Below are positions 14,843 to 31,829 of a stretch of DNA of 33,877 nucleotides, one piece after another. The DNA is from Desulfovibrio sp. (GTDB lineage Bacteria > Desulfobacterota > Desulfovibrionia > Desulfovibrionales > Desulfovibrionaceae): contig JAFTCE010000059.1 in assembly GCA_017454855.1 (NCBI GenBank), forward strand, positions 1-33,877. Direction: 5' to 3'. The notes under the pieces are model-generated. The model made no database searches and had not been told where the DNA came from. It saw nothing but the letters and a program-made list of their open reading frames with translations. Position 1 is the stretch's first letter. Each line of letters begins with the position of its first letter. A program made the position numbers and the translations under genes.

Positions 14843-15982
14843 TCAGGCCAATGTGGAGGTTTTGCCGCCGTCCAGCATGTTCAGGGCAATGTTTTTTTCC
14901 TCCTTGAAGCGGTTGGCCACGGCAGCCTGCACCCTGCTCGTGGAAGAACCAAATTGGCCTACGCGTATCTTGTAGACATTGGAAATGAGGTTGCGCTCGT
15001 AGGACGGGTCACTCGGCTTGCCGCTCAAGGCATCGGCCCGGGCAAAGATGCGTGCCGCGCCAGCCGGTCCATGCTGCACGGCCGTACTCCAGATAACTTC
15101 GCGCATGGCCGTGGACAGGGTGCTTTCCGTGAGACCTGTGCGCTGTACGATGGACTCCAGGGCGGGCTTGTAGTGGCTTTGATGGATAAAGTCCTCTTGC
15201 AGTTGCTCAAAGCGCTCAGGTTGCTCGCTGGCGATACTTCGCCATGTATCGGGCATGGAGCCATGACGACTGCCCGTATTGCCAGGACCAGAAGCGCGTA
15301 GGCGTCTGGAAATGTCTGGCGCTTCCGTATCTAAATACTTCAGAAAATCCGAGAGGCTGCCAGCCCGTGAGGAGACTTGATACTTGCCATAGGACGTGCC
15401 GCCGTTGCGGTCATAGCCCACTGCGGCAACGCCGTCGCTACCCGACTCAAAGCGGGCGGAAAGCTGTCCTAGACTCGTATCGTCAACATGGTGCGCTGGC
15501 TTGGTGCGCATCTTGCTCTTGTCCCCCTTGCCGCGGGCATGGATAAAATCGCCCATATTCAGTCCGCGAAAACGGCTGTCCATGCTTCCGGTCAAGGTTC
15601 CGAGGCTGCGGGCCGCCCCCATGCTGCGCGCCAAATCCAAAGTCGAACCCGTACTCGCCAGGCTTTGCTCCATGAAGCTTTCCATGACCTGGCTCTGCCG
15701 CAAATCAGCTTCGCTCCGAGAGAGAAGCTGTGCGCGCATAAGATCGCTGGGAGTGCGTCCGACCAGCACGAAATGACGCTGACTGGACAATAGTGAGGGC
15801 ATGAGCGCGGGCTGTGCCCCGCCGACGCTGGCCTTGCTGCCCGCAGGCGCATTTTGACCGTTCACAAGATGGGCAAAGGTCGAGGGACTTTCTGCCTGCG
15901 CTGCCGCCATGCGGCGGGACGCGCCCGCATGCTTTTGCGCCGATGCTGCCGGTGGACGGATGAGAACGTTGGAAAGCGCCAT
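14843..15982 (-). CDS. Lysozyme/chitosanase-like peptidoglycan hydrolase, probably flagellar
   Basis: The protein has 379 residues. The first 165 are low in complexity (Ala, Ser, Arg, Gln). The C-terminal half looks like a lysozyme-superfamily fold: SARFESGSDG with a candidate catalytic glutamate (E179), YDRNGGTSYGKYQ (190-202), then a helical part with WRSIASEQPERFEQLQ and VIWSTAVQHGPAGAARIFARA. Related 'Vgr-related' proteins occur in Desulfovibrio. It would cut peptidoglycan, perhaps to let the flagellar rod through, as FlgJ does elsewhere, but no typical Sec signal peptide is visible. AGGAGGT four bases before the ATG at 15982 fixes the start. A sigma-54 promoter lies just upstream, and the GT9 gene follows in the same unit. 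Confidence 0.65.
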   Translation of the reverse strand: MALSNVLIRPPAASAQKHAGASRRMAAAQAESPSTFAHLVNGQNAPAGSKASVGGAQPALMPSLLSSQRHFVLVGRTPSDLMRAQLLSRSEADLRQSQVMESFMEQSLASTGSTLDLARSMGAARSLGTLTGSMDSRFRGLNMGDFIHARGKGDKSKMRTKPAHHVDDTSLGQLSARFESGSDGVAAVGYDRNGGTSYGKYQVSSRAGSLSDFLKYLDTEAPDISRRLRASGPGNTGSRHGSMPDTWRSIASEQPERFEQLQEDFIHQSHYKPALESIVQRTGLTESTLSTAMREVIWSTAVQHGPAGAARIFARADALSGKPSDPSYERNLISNVYKIRVGQFGSSTSRVQAAVANRFKEEKNIALNMLDGGKTSTLA

Positions 15983-16024
15983 AAGTACCTCCTGCGGGAC
16001 ATGACTTTCCGCAATCGTTCTCAA

Positions 16025-20215: not shown

Positions 20216-20250
20216 GCTGTGTGGAATACTTCAGAAAGAGAGATGCACTG

Positions 20251-20286
20251 CCGTTCCTGAAGTGAGCGCACTTCAGACGGACTTTT
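20251..20286 (+). terminator. Probable intrinsic terminator after fliR
   Basis: CTGAAGTG/CACTTCAG forms a perfect 8-bp stem with an AGCG loop, extended across a two-base bulge by CCGT/ACGG, and is followed by ACTTTT. It lies 36 bases after the fliR stop. Confidence 0.6.
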
Positions 20287-20360: not shown

Positions 20361-23009
20361 ATGGCGACGAGGCAGCAAAGAGAAATAAGACTCTCCCCTG
20401 GGGGCTATTTGCGTTTTGAGGATGGCCCGGGAACGGACTGGCAAGAGCAATGGTTCTTGCTAGGCGCACAACGGAGGCGGGAAACGGATGCGGTACGGGC
20501 CTTTTGGCATGGCGTCAGCGCGAGCTGCATAACGGCCCTCTGCCATGTGGCCTCCCCGGACATTGCCCTAGACGAGGAGATCCGGCGCATCCCGGCCATT
20601 CCCCTTCCCGAGGCCGCTGAACAATGGCTGGATGCTGCACCTCCCATGCCCGGCGGCGAGTACCTGTCTTTGGAGATGCTGGCAAGGCTGTGGGTTAAAT
20701 TGCTCGCCTGGTGTGCCCAGGCCGTGTCCGTACGCGGCGGCATTGCGACTTTCCTGCAAGAATGCGCCCCCCAATGGCAACATGTGGGACGAATTTTTTT
20801 TCATCTTGCCGAGAACAGGATGGATGCGGCACGTCCCTTTGCCTTTCTGGCCACCTACGCCATAGGACTCAATGAACATGGCCAACCTCGCCATGTCCCG
20901 CTGTCCAACGCTTTGCGCCAGTATGCTGCGGCCAAGGATAAGCCCGCCCTCCTGCATCTCCTGGAGCCTCTGCACAAGGCGGCACAACAGCTACCCTGGG
21001 TGCGGGCCATGGTTGACGACAATTCCATTTATCAGCCTTGGCCTTGGCAGGCACGTAAGGCCCATGACTTCCTCAAAAGCGCGGAGACCCTGGAATCCTG
21101 TGGCATAGGCGTGCGGCTGCCCAACTGGTGGCGGCAGCGCCGCCACCCCGTGGTTCATGCCGTGTTCAACATGCGCACATCCGCGCACTTGGGAGCGCAG
21201 TCTCTGGTCGATGTGGATCTTCGCGTTGCTCTGGGCGAAGAAGAGTGTTCGACACAGGAGCTGCAGCGCTTGTTGGAGCAAGGTGAAAGCGGCCTTGTCC
21301 TCTTCAAGGGGCAATGGATTGAGCTGGACAGGGACAAGCTGCAACAGGCCCTGGCCCACTGGAAACACGTTGAAAAACAGGCAGCGGCAGGCAATTTGGG
21401 CTTCGCGCAGGGCATGCGCCTTCTCGCCGGATATGCCTGTGGGGCCGAAGATACGCTAACCAGCGTCGATGAAGAAGTGCAGACATGGTCCTCCCCTGTA
21501 GCGGGCACGGGCTTTAGGGAGCTGATGAGCGCCGCACGCACCGAGGCCGTGGACAGCATCCCTGGCCTGCGCGCCACCTTGCGACCGTATCAGGCCCGCG
21601 GCGTGGCCTGGCTTGCCTTTCTCGATAGGCTCGGCCTAGGCGCCTGCCTTGCCGACGACATGGGCCTGGGCAAGACCATGCAGATTCTGGCCTTGTTGCT
21701 GCGGGAGCGCGGCCACGGCCCCAGCCTGCTCGTTGCTCCGGCCTCACTCCTGGGCAACTGGCAGGCCGAAGCGCGAAAATTTGCCCCGGACTTGCGCCTT
21801 CTCGTCCTGCATGGCCAGAACAGGAAGGCCCTGGCCGCCAACCCCGACGAGGGCGTTTTGGACGACGTGGATCTTGTCCTGGTCAGCTATGCCGGCTTGG
21901 CAGGCATGTCCTGGCTGGCCAAAAGATCTTGGCGCCGCGTCATTGCTGACGAGGCCCAGGCCATCAAGAATGCGGGCACGCGGCAAAGCAAATCCGTGCG
22001 GGCATTGCAGGCCGCTGCCCGCATTGCCCTTACGGGTACGCCCGTGGAAAATGGCCTTTCCGATCTGTGGGCGCTCTTTGACTTTCTCAATCCCGGCTTG
22101 CTGGGGTCGGCCAAGGTTTTTGCCGCAGCCGTCAAGCGTATGCAGAGTTCTTCTGCTCGTTTTGCGCCCCTGCGCAAGCTGACGGCGCCCTACATTCTGC
22201 GGCGCATGAAGACGGATAAGACCGTCATTGATTCCCTGCCCGACAAGACGGAAGTACCCCTGTACTGCCAGTTGACCAAGGCGCAGGCGCGGCTTTACTT
22301 GGGCGTAACCAGCAAGCTGCAGCAGGCATTGGAAGACCTGGATGACTCCACTGAAGCCAAAAGACGTCGTCGCATACTTATTTTGCAGAGCCTCATGTTG
22401 CTCAAGCAAATCTGTAACCATCCTGCTCAAGCCCAGGGAGGGGACTTTGCAGCGGAGGCATCGGGAAAATTCCAAGCCGTTGCCGCATTGTGTACCACCT
22501 TGGCCGCTCGTCAGGAAAAACTCTTGGTCTTCACGCAGTTTCGGGAAATTGTCGATCCTCTGGCGCAATGCCTTGCTGGGATTTTCCATGCCCCGGGCTT
22601 GACGCTGCATGGCGGCATTGCCGTGGGCAAACGTCAGGCAGTGGTGGATGCCTTCCAGGCAGAAGACGGGCCGCCCTTTCTCGTCCTCACGCTCAAGGTT
22701 GGCGGCACTGGACTGACACTGACCGAAGCCGGTCACGTCATACACTTTGACCGTTGGTGGAATCCGGCCGTGGAAGATCAGGCAACGGATCGTGCCTACC
22801 GCATCGGCCAAAAAAAGAATGTCCTCGTACACAAATGCATCACCAGGGGCACGTTGGAAGAAAAAATTGACGATTTGATCCGCAGCAAAAGAGAACTTGC
22901 GGATGAAATCCTCGGCAGTGGCGCTGAAGTCAATATCACGGCCTTGAGCGACGAAGAAATTCACAATCTCCTGCGTCTGGACATGGAGCATATAGCGGGG
23001 CAGGCATGA
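20361..23009 (+). CDS. SNF2-family helicase-like ATPase
   Basis: The protein has 882 residues. The C-terminal half is a complete SNF2/Rad54-type motor: motif I DDMGLGKT (432-439), motif II DEAQ (530-533), motif III LTGTPVENGLSDLW, motif V VGGTGLTLTEAGHVI and motif VI RAYRIGQ (811-817), in the HepA/RapA-like bacterial group. The first ~400 residues resemble the N-terminal region found in bacterial SNF2 proteins that pair with SWIM proteins. It should translocate on double-stranded DNA, remodelling protein-DNA complexes; its true target is unknown. GAGG seven bases before the ATG at 20361 sets the start. It overlaps the next gene by four bases (ATGA), so the two products are made together and probably act together. 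Confidence 0.93.
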   Translation: MATRQQREIRLSPGGYLRFEDGPGTDWQEQWFLLGAQRRRETDAVRAFWHGVSASCITALCHVASPDIALDEEIRRIPAIPLPEAAEQWLDAAPPMPGGEYLSLEMLARLWVKLLAWCAQAVSVRGGIATFLQECAPQWQHVGRIFFHLAENRMDAARPFAFLATYAIGLNEHGQPRHVPLSNALRQYAAAKDKPALLHLLEPLHKAAQQLPWVRAMVDDNSIYQPWPWQARKAHDFLKSAETLESCGIGVRLPNWWRQRRHPVVHAVFNMRTSAHLGAQSLVDVDLRVALGEEECSTQELQRLLEQGESGLVLFKGQWIELDRDKLQQALAHWKHVEKQAAAGNLGFAQGMRLLAGYACGAEDTLTSVDEEVQTWSSPVAGTGFRELMSAARTEAVDSIPGLRATLRPYQARGVAWLAFLDRLGLGACLADDMGLGKTMQILALLLRERGHGPSLLVAPASLLGNWQAEARKFAPDLRLLVLHGQNRKALAANPDEGVLDDVDLVLVSYAGLAGMSWLAKRSWRRVIADEAQAIKNAGTRQSKSVRALQAAARIALTGTPVENGLSDLWALFDFLNPGLLGSAKVFAAAVKRMQSSSARFAPLRKLTAPYILRRMKTDKTVIDSLPDKTEVPLYCQLTKAQARLYLGVTSKLQQALEDLDDSTEAKRRRRILILQSLMLLKQICNHPAQAQGGDFAAEASGKFQAVAALCTTLAARQEKLLVFTQFREIVDPLAQCLAGIFHAPGLTLHGGIAVGKRQAVVDAFQAEDGPPFLVLTLKVGGTGLTLTEAGHVIHFDRWWNPAVEDQATDRAYRIGQKKNVLVHKCITRGTLEEKIDDLIRSKRELADEILGSGAEVNITALSDEEIHNLLRLDMEHIAGQA

Positions 23010-24124
23010 GTTACGAATTTTTTGAATATGTCCCTGTGGAGGAAAAGGAAAAACGCGCCAGCAGGATGCTGGCCAAACTGCAAGGCAAAGGCACGCAGGT
23101 GCAGCCCATCTTGGCATTTACGGGAGCCCTGGCCAAAACCTTCTGGGGCAAAAGCTGGTGCCAGAATCTAGAACTCTATGCCGACTACGCCAACAGGCTG
23201 TCCAGGGGCCGCAGCTATGTGCGCCACGGTTGTCTGTGCCATCTGGAGATAGCCGCTGGTCAGGTGAAGGCAAAGGTGATGGGCAGCCGTCTGTATCAAG
23301 TCAGGATAGACATTGCGCCGCTGGCAGCCGAGCGTTGGCAGGCCGTCTGCGCCAGATGCCAAGGCCAGATTGCTACGCTCATCGAATTGTTGCAGGGCAA
23401 GCTGTCGCGTGAGGTCATGGGCGTCATCTGCGATCCGGAAAAAGGCATTTTCCCGGCCCCTAAGGAAGTGCGTTTCTCCTGCTCCTGCCCGGACAGCGCC
23501 AACATGTGCAAGCATGTGGCTGCCACACTCTATGGCGTCGGACGGCGCCTGGATGACGCCCCGGAGCAGATTTTCACCCTGCGCTGCGTCAATGCCGATG
23601 CCCTGCTGCCGCAGATACTGGAAGTGAGCGCACACGAAAGCGCCGCGACCTTACATGTGGACGACATGGGCGCGCTTTTTGGCATCGATCTTATCCTGGA
23701 TGGTACGGCGGATGCATCTATGCATGGACGCGCAGTTGCGCCCGCTGCTGCGCACACGGACATGCCCGCGTCTGGATGCGCCAACGAAGGCCCGCAGAAA
23801 TGCCAGGTTGAAGGCACAAAACCGCCAGCCCCTGCCCTGCCACAATCGTGCGCTTCGTCGATCGGGACAATACCTGTCAGGCCAGGCACACGGCCACGCG
23901 GGCTGCTCAAGCCCCAAAAGCCCACAGGGATGGCCGTCTGCAACCTGCACCGCCTTTCAGGGTTGAGTGCCGCTGCCTTCGCCGCTGCCCTTGGCGTCAC
24001 AGTCGTCACGGTGGAGCGCTGGGAAGGCATACGCGGAGCATTGCGGCTCAAGGCCGATTCCCTGCAGGCGCTGCTGCGCTTTCAGGAACAGCTTTTGCAA
24101 AAACTCAACCTCGGCGCGTCGTAA
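23006..24124 (+). CDS. SWIM zinc-finger protein with C-terminal HTH-like domain
   Basis: The protein has 372 residues. Residues 40-155 match the N-terminal part of bacterial SWIM proteins (TFWGKSWCQNLE, YANRLSRGRSYVR). The SWIM finger is complete: C159-x-C161-x6-C168-x-H170 (FSCSCPDSANMCKHVAATLYG), expected to bind zinc and DNA or protein. Residues about 240-305 are a Pro/Ala-rich linker. From about 310 on there is a helix-turn-helix that resembles HigA/YgiT-like antitoxin DNA-binding domains (LSAAAFAAALGVTVVTVERWEG). The SWIM plus HTH fusion is unusual. It is coupled to the SNF2 gene by a four-base overlap, and likely brings that motor to DNA. No terminator is visible before the convergent thiE. 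Confidence 0.88.
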   Translation: MSYEFFEYVPVEEKEKRASRMLAKLQGKGTQVQPILAFTGALAKTFWGKSWCQNLELYADYANRLSRGRSYVRHGCLCHLEIAAGQVKAKVMGSRLYQVRIDIAPLAAERWQAVCARCQGQIATLIELLQGKLSREVMGVICDPEKGIFPAPKEVRFSCSCPDSANMCKHVAATLYGVGRRLDDAPEQIFTLRCVNADALLPQILEVSAHESAATLHVDDMGALFGIDLILDGTADASMHGRAVAPAAAHTDMPASGCANEGPQKCQVEGTKPPAPALPQSCASSIGTIPVRPGTRPRGLLKPQKPTGMAVCNLHRLSGLSAAAFAAALGVTVVTVERWEGIRGALRLKADSLQALLRFQEQLLQKLNLGAS

Positions 24125-29165: not shown

Positions 29166-31829
29166 ATGTCGTATACAAAAGATGTCACTACATATGTGGT
29201 TAGTGAAACACTTGAGTCAACCGGGGATGTGCAGAATGTCCTCGCCGGTGGCATTGCTCACTCTACAACGATACTAGCGGGCTATCAGTATGTCTCCAAG
29301 GGCGGCCTGGCAAGCGAAACAATCATGTCGGGCGCGTCGCATCAGGAGGCGTTTCAAAGGGTTTCTTCGGGTGGTAAAGCCGTAAGTACCACGATTGGCA
29401 TCAGTGCTGCCCAGTATGTGGATTCTGGGGGTGTGGTTTACTCTACCGTTATTGATTCGGGAGGGCATCAGCGTATCTTTTCCGGAACCGCGTACAATAC
29501 CATCGTCAACTCCCGAGGCGTGCAGTACATCAATCCGGGCGGTATCGCAGACCAAACCTACGTCAATGGAGGCACTCAGGAAATATACGCTGCCCAGTAC
29601 GGCGGGGGTATTGCCAGAAATACGCGCGTCGTCAACGGCGCACAGAACATATCCGGATATTACGACAGCGCGACCAATACTTCCAGCTCCGGCGTAGCGA
29701 GCAATACCTATCTCGGGAGCAGAGGCGTTCAGAGTATCACGTCATTGGGCAAAGCCAGTCAGACCTATATCAGCAGCGGCGGTGTGGCGCATGTCCTCGA
29801 TGGCGGCAGCGCCATTTTGGCCTATGTCAGCAGGGGAGGCTCGCAGCTAGTCAGCTCCGGTGGCTATGCAACAAAAACCACCATACGCAGCGGTGGCCTG
29901 CAAAATATTTTGGCCAACGGCAAAACCGTCAGCACGATCGTGAGCAGAGGCGGTTTGGAAACAGTTTTGGCCAGTGGGGTCGCATCAAAAACCCACATCC
30001 GCACGGGCGGCAGCCAGGTAGTGAACTCAGGTGGCAGTGCCATGGCATCCATCGTGAGCGGCGGCGGCTCCCAGATCGTGAATGCCGGAGCCCTTGCCCA
30101 GAAAGGTACGGTGAATGTGGAAGGTTTTCAATTGGTGAACGGCGGGATGGCCAATGCCATTACCGTCAAAGGATGGCAAGAGGTGCTGAGCGCTGGCGTT
30201 GCCAGCAATTGCCTGATTGCCTCCGGCGGAAGCCAGAACGTCCTCACCAATGCGACCGGTTCAGCTCTGGATACGAGGATTGATGCTGGCGGTTCGCAAA
30301 TCGTGGAATCGGGAGCCGTGGCCTACCGCACCCAGGTTCGGATCAGCGGCTCGACAGCTACGGCCAAAGCGTATCAAATCGTCAGCGAAGGCGGCATCGC
30401 CAGCGACACCATTGTCAGCAGCGGCGGCGTGCAGGATATTGTTTCCGGCGGATATGCGGCCAATGCCAGAATCCGTTCCGGCGGCTCCCAGGTCGTCCGC
30501 CGTGGTTTCTTTTGGGATAGCGAGGGCATCGCCAGCGGCACGATTCTCAGCGGCGGTGTACAGATCGTCAGTTCCGGTGCCCTGGCGCAGGAAACAACCG
30601 CAAGCCAGGGCGGCAGGCAGCATGTCAAGAGCGGAGGCTCTGCGGAAGGCATTGTGCTGCGACGCGGATCCGCGCTGATTTCCAGTGGCGGTATGGCCAA
30701 TGACATCCTTGTCTCCAGCGGCGGCGTACTCATCGTCAACAAGAACGCCCAGGTCACCGGCGTGACGGTCTCCAACGGAGGTACCGTGAGAGGACTTTCC
30801 GTTATGGCTGGCGATCAACTTGATATCCAGAAAGGCGGTACTGCGTCGTCCATCACCGTTCCTCTGAGTGCTTCCGTAACAATTTCCGCAGGAGGCATCC
30901 TTAAAGGCTCGAACGTGGTCAGTGCGGGCACCGTGAGCGGCAACGCCACTCTGGCCAAGGGGGCCACGCTGCAAGTCAGCTCCGCATCAATGTCCTCGCT
31001 GACCCTCACGGCCAGCGGTGCGAATCTGACAGTAGGGAAGGGAAGTTCTGTACTCAAAAAGCTCGTCACCGATGCCAACACGACGACCACATTTGACATC
31101 CGATCTGTCAGCGCCAATAACAGCAAGCCCCTGCTGTCACTCAAGACAAGCCAGACGCAAAAGGGAAAATACGCCGTCACGGTCAAAAAGGGCCAAACTC
31201 TGGGGACATACACACTTACGAACAATCTCCTTTTGGCGGACAAAACGGCCTTTACGATCAATCTTGTAAACGGCAGTTCGCCCACATCTGTTGCCCCCAC
31301 GCTCAATGACACAACGAAATCCATGCATGGCGTCAAGTATGGGGTCATCAGCTTCAAGCAAAGTGGCGCGACGCGCAACGCTCTTGTGCTGACCCCGGTG
31401 CTGGGGAATGTCCTCAAGACCACAGGCACGAATAATTGTGACGTTTTCCTTGGCGGCCAGGGGGCAGCAGGCAAGACAAATACCTTTACGGGGAAGGATG
31501 GTCGGGATGTACTCATCTATACGGGCGCTCCCACAAACAAGGTCAACGACGTCATCAAGGCCACAAACGGCACCATGACAATCCTGTTCAATGACCTGTC
31601 CTCAAGTCAGGTGAAGGCCAAAACAAGCGGTGACACCAGAACCTTCACATTCACGAATGGCGCTACATTGACTGTCCAGGGCTGGAGCAATGAAACACAC
31701 AATATTGTGTATAACTCCGGTGCTTTGAATGCCTTTAGTAGTTATGTGAAAGCGGCTTCGCCCACCACTACGCAAAAAACGGCAGCTGTCGCTCAGGTAT
31801 GGCGTGCTGCCAAGCTGGCCGCTGTGTAA
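29166..31829 (+). CDS. AIDA-repeat adhesin with RTX/type I-like C-terminal module
   Basis: The protein has 887 residues. There is no signal peptide (MSYTKDVTTYVVSETLES). Residues about 25-600 are degenerate repeats of about 19 residues with the AIDA-type consensus GGxAxxTxIxSGGxQxV, expected to fold as a right-handed beta-helix stalk. Residues about 600-745 are Ser/Thr-rich beta. The last 140 residues (TGTNNCDVFLGGQG, then DGRDVLIY, NGTMTILFND, TVQGWSNETHNIVY, YVKAASPT) match the fragment at 2-427. There is no autotransporter barrel, so export by a type I system is more likely than self-transport. AGGAGG nine bases before the ATG sets the start, and a terminator follows at 31852. The role is presumably surface adhesion or biofilm. 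Confidence 0.88.
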   Translation: MSYTKDVTTYVVSETLESTGDVQNVLAGGIAHSTTILAGYQYVSKGGLASETIMSGASHQEAFQRVSSGGKAVSTTIGISAAQYVDSGGVVYSTVIDSGGHQRIFSGTAYNTIVNSRGVQYINPGGIADQTYVNGGTQEIYAAQYGGGIARNTRVVNGAQNISGYYDSATNTSSSGVASNTYLGSRGVQSITSLGKASQTYISSGGVAHVLDGGSAILAYVSRGGSQLVSSGGYATKTTIRSGGLQNILANGKTVSTIVSRGGLETVLASGVASKTHIRTGGSQVVNSGGSAMASIVSGGGSQIVNAGALAQKGTVNVEGFQLVNGGMANAITVKGWQEVLSAGVASNCLIASGGSQNVLTNATGSALDTRIDAGGSQIVESGAVAYRTQVRISGSTATAKAYQIVSEGGIASDTIVSSGGVQDIVSGGYAANARIRSGGSQVVRRGFFWDSEGIASGTILSGGVQIVSSGALAQETTASQGGRQHVKSGGSAEGIVLRRGSALISSGGMANDILVSSGGVLIVNKNAQVTGVTVSNGGTVRGLSVMAGDQLDIQKGGTASSITVPLSASVTISAGGILKGSNVVSAGTVSGNATLAKGATLQVSSASMSSLTLTASGANLTVGKGSSVLKKLVTDANTTTTFDIRSVSANNSKPLLSLKTSQTQKGKYAVTVKKGQTLGTYTLTNNLLLADKTAFTINLVNGSSPTSVAPTLNDTTKSMHGVKYGVISFKQSGATRNALVLTPVLGNVLKTTGTNNCDVFLGGQGAAGKTNTFTGKDGRDVLIYTGAPTNKVNDVIKATNGTMTILFNDLSSSQVKAKTSGDTRTFTFTNGATLTVQGWSNETHNIVYNSGALNAFSSYVKAASPTTTQKTAAVAQVWRAAKLAAV
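29238..30975 (+). repeat. AIDA-type tandem repeats inside the adhesin gene
   Basis: Degenerate units of about 19 codons (57 bases) recur, built on GGC/GGT-rich codons (AGCAGCGGCGGT-like cores). Protein-level units include SGGVQDIVSGGYAANARIRS and SGGSQVV. Copies vary in sequence, so recombination is possible but not extreme. Confidence 0.8.

Follow-up and report, generated by a model that had tools for sequence, protein, structure and literature searches.

What would a bacterium do with a DNA motor of the SNF2 family whose gene overlaps that of a SWIM zinc-finger protein ending in a helix-turn-helix (HTH) domain? The question is raised by two forward-strand genes in a 33,877-nucleotide stretch of Desulfovibrio sp. 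DNA (assembly GCA_017454855.1, contig JAFTCE010000059.1, positions 1 to 33,877; the whole stretch is called the window hereafter). SNF2 family motors pull on double-stranded DNA. We lean slightly towards the reading that the pair forms a two-part DNA-remodelling machine, i.e. a tethered motor, with an accessory role in chromosome maintenance. The tethered-motor mechanism is held more firmly than the repair role.

A complete SNF2 motor paired with a SWIM-HTH protein

The SNF2 gene (20361-23009, with an ATG start codon at 20361) encodes 882 residues. A DUF3670 domain (PF12419; residues 224-354, 21030-21422) precedes the motor, which consists of an SNF2-related N-terminal lobe (residues 410-689, 21588-22427) and a Helicase_C lobe (residues 708-816, 22482-22808). 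All three domains scored above the Pfam cut-offs, DUF3670 with 103 bits against 27.6 (106 bits in the genome search). Both lobes are complete, with the Walker A, DEAx box and TGTP motifs found (GLGKT, DEAQ and TGTP, all in the first lobe), which assigns the protein by its motifs to the SNF2 (SF2) family. The nearest solved motor by sequence is PDB 1z63 (snf2/rad54 helicase; E 5.5e-115, residues 402-874), a Rad54-like ATPase that we take to be of Sulfolobus origin and whose solved chain has 500 residues. A fold search with the SNF2 model returned chromatin remodellers, Mot1 and CSB/Rad26 among the best matches and barely covered the N-terminal part. Three identities were rejected by score, namely Zorya ZorD (NF041790, 271.5 against a cut-off of 1500), DISARM DrmD (NF038318, 93 against 950) and RapA/HepA (NCBIfam RapA, 33.9 bits against 576). 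DUF3670 and the SNF2 motor are shared with the DUF3670-type helicases that accompany SWIM proteins (NCBIfam SCO1167/SCO6262 family), but the window protein reached 511.1 against a cut-off of 1200 with the family model (NF058637), and its SWIM partner bears an HTH.

The SWIM gene (23006-24124, 372 residues) starts within the SNF2 stop, the two sharing the four bases ATGA (23006-23009). The original prediction had taken this overlap as the sign of a fixed pair, and the wider comparison bears it out: an SNF2 gene lies on the same strand within 300 bases of the SWIM gene in 109 of the 116 SWIM entries, while of the other seven, three gave no SNF2 match within the DNA retrieved and four had one further away. 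Distances among SNF2 proteins and among SWIM proteins were correlated (r 0.83, 93 loci), and nearest neighbours by SNF2 had the same HTH state in 85 of the 93. The comparison shows the SWIM partner next to the motor in nearly all entries, with the two sequences diverging in step.

The SWIM domain, whose discovery paper reportedly dates from 2002, lies in a core comprising residues 1-230 (23006-23695), as delimited with a hidden Markov model of 23 relatives and with the predicted local distance difference test (pLDDT) of the structure model (blocks of 70-98 up to residue 200, then 55-58 over residues 201-230). The zinc-finger match (PF04434) was marginally above its cut-off (20.2 against 19.6 bits), and the four putative zinc ligands of the CxCx(n)CxH motif (C159-x-C161...C168-x-H170, 23480-23515) were unchanged across 64 aligned sequences. 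A PDB profile search with the core gave five weak matches, every one to the HTH. Together with A173, the four ligands also fit the signature CXC...CXHXXA, which PMC6316741 gives as the extended motif of the Shu2/SWS1 recombination family. Members of that family are described as partnered by RAD51 paralogues, whereas the conserved gene neighbour of the window SWIM protein is the SNF2 motor.

Behind the core comes a variable linker rich in Ala, Pro and Thr (residues 231-302, 23696-23911; mean identity 0.22 over 39 HTH-bearing sequences), predicted to be disordered (pLDDT blocks 42-51 over residues 231-300). The tail itself (residues 303-371, 23912-24118) is a predicted Cro/C1-type (Xre, HigA2-like) HTH, modelled at pLDDT 96-98 over residues 311-360. 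Xre-like models matched the C-terminus below cut-off when the protein was scanned singly; the assignment comes from a profile match and from the fold, the nearest structures being antitoxins and repressors. Both the Pro/Ala linker and the antitoxin-like HTH of the original prediction have stood. Viral structures yielded nothing at E≤0.001, and most of the weaker rows aligned with the HTH only. The tail resembles HigA2/MqsA-type antitoxins in sequence profile and fold but is joined to a SWIM protein, and a type II antitoxin (HigA/MqsA) was rejected as its identity: TIGR03830 scored 18.4 against 61.8, and in the window the pair is flanked by fliR and thiE, with no toxin gene adjoining. The ratio of non-synonymous to synonymous substitution rates (dN/dS) in 12 pairs of relatives was 0.08-0.29 for the core and 0.14-0.58 for the HTH, which indicates purifying selection on both. 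By profile and model the C-terminal HTH is genuine, and the analysis shows, at that level, a complete SNF2 motor together with a folded, selected HTH behind a disordered linker.

Tail types and a proposed tethered motor

Among 108 non-duplicate relatives, the SWIM core is followed by an HTH in 52, by a Lys/Arg-rich tail in 39, by other tails in nine and by fewer than 30 residues in eight. The sample is tilted to the window's type because the best-scoring 80 of at least 577 confirmed genome-contig loci were kept. In our reading of the sequences, the Lys/Arg-rich tails resemble those of histone H1. According to record titles, HTH-bearing entries, mostly from metagenome-assembled genomes, span about 10 phyla (Thermodesulfobacteriota, Pseudomonadota, Planctomycetota, Verrucomicrobiota, Kiritimatiellota, Acidobacteriota, Ca. 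Binatota, Bacillota, Hydrogenedentes and Sericytochromatia). In a quick tree of the 108 cores the HTH needed six changes, at least three of them forced by starred branches. With five sequences left out (103 remaining) a single HTH clade was rejected (approximately unbiased test, p_AU 1.2e-31); with 13 tail-less, distant or partial sequences left out (95 remaining) the HTH needed two changes and a single clade was not rejected (p_AU 0.32), the sequences to omit having been picked after the tree was seen. The pattern fits an HTH branch of early origin that was afterwards lost in places. Two loci without an HTH may be mentioned for their surroundings. The DNA behind the SWIM gene of L027 (genome G076) resembles, by eye, part of an acetyltransferase gene, and a distant, tail-less SNF2/SWIM pair of about 40% identity in genome G194 (L103:3677-10584) adjoins thiE, MscS and cupin genes resembling the window's, with side and orientation both reversed.

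A profile search (E≤1e-20) found SWIM relatives in 36 of 297 genomes of the phylum; at family level, 13 of 149 genomes yielded such relatives. Of the 79 genomes of the genus, 20 show an SNF2 match extending into the N-terminal part of the protein (counted from the listing, fragments included); in G154, G156, G164, G188 and G200 the match starts at residue 199, within a longer protein, and some SNF2 match is present in all 79. Of the control genomes, B. subtilis, S. elongatus and M. acetivorans each have a DUF3670 and a SWIM match, adjacency not being part of this result. The window's own genome also encodes a SWIM-SNF2 fusion of 1104 residues (L240:3543-6857). Like the pair, it combines a SWIM-type Cys/His cluster with an SNF2 motor; unlike the pair, it is one polypeptide with SNF2_assoc and no DUF3670 match, and it is not among the four places matched by the HTH profile in that genome. 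Another protein of the same genome, a 1212-residue SNF2 helicase on contig C117 (L239:1375-5013), carries HTH and motor in one chain, the Cro/C1 HTH (HTH_3, 5.8e-10) at its N-terminus and a NOV_C domain at its C-terminus.

We interpret the disordered linker, together with the HTH or basic tail behind it, most readily as a DNA tether. By analogy with the families concerned, the motor would pull double-stranded DNA, the SWIM core would dock onto the motor, and the tail would bind DNA beside it and keep the complex loaded; the pulling force could then clear obstacles such as stalled RNA polymerase, bound proteins or joined recombination intermediates. The original prediction had proposed that the HTH could give the complex a DNA address. 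This is a reasonable inference, though an unproven one, since 39 of the 108 relatives have a basic tail instead and no inverted repeat with arms of at least 7 bases was found in 65 of 90 upstream regions (duplicates included); the closest relatives, L016, L088 and L027, belong to these 65. The H1-like tails and the repeat-less upstream regions indicate tethering as much as sequence-specific addressing. That SWIM-HTH is a sequence-specific targeting subunit which loads the motor at defined sites, with the H1-tailed relatives as a non-specific counterpart, seems to us rather doubtful; if true, it would amount to a bacterial, site-targeted DNA remodeller. The existence of two tail kinds offers a direct handle on the question of the SWIM partner tethering the motor to DNA.

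The association of SNF2 with SWIM is already in print, PMC5512222 naming a prokaryotic family of SWI2/SNF2 ATPases associated with SWIM (SsoRad54). HTH or H1-like tails on SWIM proteins, on the other hand, were not found described in a keyword search of the open-access literature (most subscription journals lie outside this scope), and no settled role for bacterial SNF2/SWIM pairs was found in the literature searched, though such pairs occur in many bacteria.

Biological role and alternatives

The most likely role is in replication-transcription conflicts and recombination rather than in anti-phage defence. B. subtilis YwqA is presumably a relative, probably an orthologue, of the SNF2 protein, YwqA and YwqB being, as we assume, a DUF3670-type SNF2 protein and its SWIM partner. 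In the papers concerned, a PcrA bait pulled down YwqA together with RNA polymerase subunits (PMC3797733), YwqA is said to interact with RNA polymerase (PMC7385302, PMC10804225), and loss of ywqA in PcrA-depleted cells lowered viability about 8-fold (PMC7385302). These reports and the Shu2/SWS1-like motif favour genome maintenance, without proof. A further, thin lead towards maintenance, and towards the repair that the original prediction had listed as a possibility, is the presence of SbcD and SbcC downstream on the same strand in four of the 20 pair-bearing genomes of the genus. They follow the pair immediately in G187, G183 and G178 and come after a GGDEF gene in G181. SbcD was above the TIGR00619 cut-off in the three proteins scanned with it and above that of SbcD_C in the fourth, and the SbcC models scored 312-528 bits, under the curated cut-offs. 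In eight of the 20 genomes the contig stops about 2 kb downstream or sooner, so that a linkage would not be visible there. Detected by its SbcD_C domain, SbcD belongs to the accessory genes of the genus, being present in 22 of 79 genomes; it occurs in 10 of the 20 pair genomes against 12 of the 59 others (p 0.019 with no correction for kinship). As a phenotype, the SbcCD linkage points towards double-strand-break processing.

Several observations weigh against a maintenance machine with a tethering tail. The orthology with YwqA is presumed, the search showing only a DUF3670 protein in B. subtilis, and the C. glutamicum control genome matches DUF3670 without matching SWIM. SbcCD is linked to the pair in no more than the four genomes, the co-occurrence with SbcD carries no kinship correction, and another gene lies downstream in the pair genome G185. 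No third gene recurs in more than five of 102 loci. L027 and L096 have no HTH behind the SWIM gene in any forward frame, and the eight relatives short of a tail suggest that it is dispensable. Finally, loss of ywqA had little added effect with methyl methanesulfonate or H2O2 (PMC7385302).

Some of the same evidence would suit a pair that recycles RNA polymerase like RapA/HepA or Mfd, mainly backtracking or removing the stalled enzyme while the tail binds adjacent DNA: the recovery of YwqA with PcrA and RNA polymerase subunits (PMC3797733), its stated interaction with RNA polymerase, and the CSB/Rad26 and Mot1 fold matches. This appears unlikely to us given the RapA score, a YwqA orthology that is presumed and a patchy presence (20 of 79 genomes) unlike that of a core transcription factor. 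We consider it very unlikely that the SWIM protein simply represses its own operon in the manner of an antitoxin, with no guidance of the motor. The antitoxin- and repressor-like fold would agree with such a local repressor, as would a palindrome at 20257-20276, ahead of the SNF2 start (arms of 8 bases around a gap of 4, equalled in one of 50 shuffles, with an extra half-site copy at 20228-20235), and some inverted repeat in 25 of the 90 upstream regions (arms of 17 bases in L137); but the other 65 lack a repeat with arms of at least 7 bases, the basic-tail relatives would have nothing equivalent, and the flanking fliR and thiE provide no toxin.

The original prediction had also left room for defence. 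In an anti-phage or conflict system the pair would be a motor with a DNA-sensing partner, akin in logic to the Zorya and DISARM helicases. The patchy presence in the genus would suit such a system. The PADLOC models ZorD and DpdE match the motor, and the candidate family PDC-S62 weakly matches the SWIM protein (E 1.7e-5). Both a terminase piece and a GmrSD_N gene are found on the contig that carries one close copy of the pair (L016; genome G087, contig C39), and the IMG/VR contig IMGVR_UViG_2899440089_000003 equals that contig in size (19389). Among plasmids, 129 of 72,556 records gave SWIM-like matches, and PMC5512222 places SWIM-associated SNF2 ATPases widely in phage mobile systems. The ZorD and DrmD scores, however, are so far under their cut-offs that these hits reflect the common motor. 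Neighbouring genes were sampled from loci L111-L185 (150-900 residues; 100 of 205 eligible genes within 2.5 kb and 100 of 130 at 5 kb or more; all loci together hold 411 near and 243 far genes). PADLOC families were scattered in this sample, with at most two members near (PDC-S01 and QatD) and one far, as counts per family and not a measure of enrichment; single members were REase_II, DrmD, RT and others near, and GajB, PD-Lambda-3_B and MTase models far. A Pfam scan of the near set likewise gave at most two members per family, and across the 102 loci no gene is seen in more than five. Without a recurrent PADLOC family in the sample, a defence role is not supported, and we regard it as distinctly improbable.

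The pair is probably mobile all the same. One gene family adjoins it in five basic-tail relatives (L160, L187, L188, L189 and L190), the L188 member, the sole one scanned, being a large serine recombinase; this neighbour and the plasmid matches, all below 60% identity, suggest mobility. That the pair is nothing but selfish or decaying cargo with no fixed host function is nevertheless exceedingly improbable: differing neighbourhoods, the recombinase family and the missing tails would agree with it, but the purifying selection on core and HTH and the spread across about 10 phyla argue against it.

Neighbouring genes and minor observations

Pair neighbourhoods vary from genome to genome. A search for an empty site covered 29 fliR loci in other genomes of the genus with 1500-base flanks, and matches to the window's neighbour genes were absent from all of them. 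One of 50,697 phage records had a match (31% identity over 48% of the query), and seven loci were matched in IMG/VR. Three loci of the genus encode small related proteins immediately ahead of SNF2 (L089:11090-11707, L090:7707-8168 and L096:3734-4276), the first being assigned to Ada_Zn_binding (Pfam) and the second to a sunset domain (NCBIfam). Elsewhere in the window, positions 14843-16024 encode a protein whose C-terminal domain is VgrG3-like, and positions 29166-31829 a large AIDA-stalk repeat protein.

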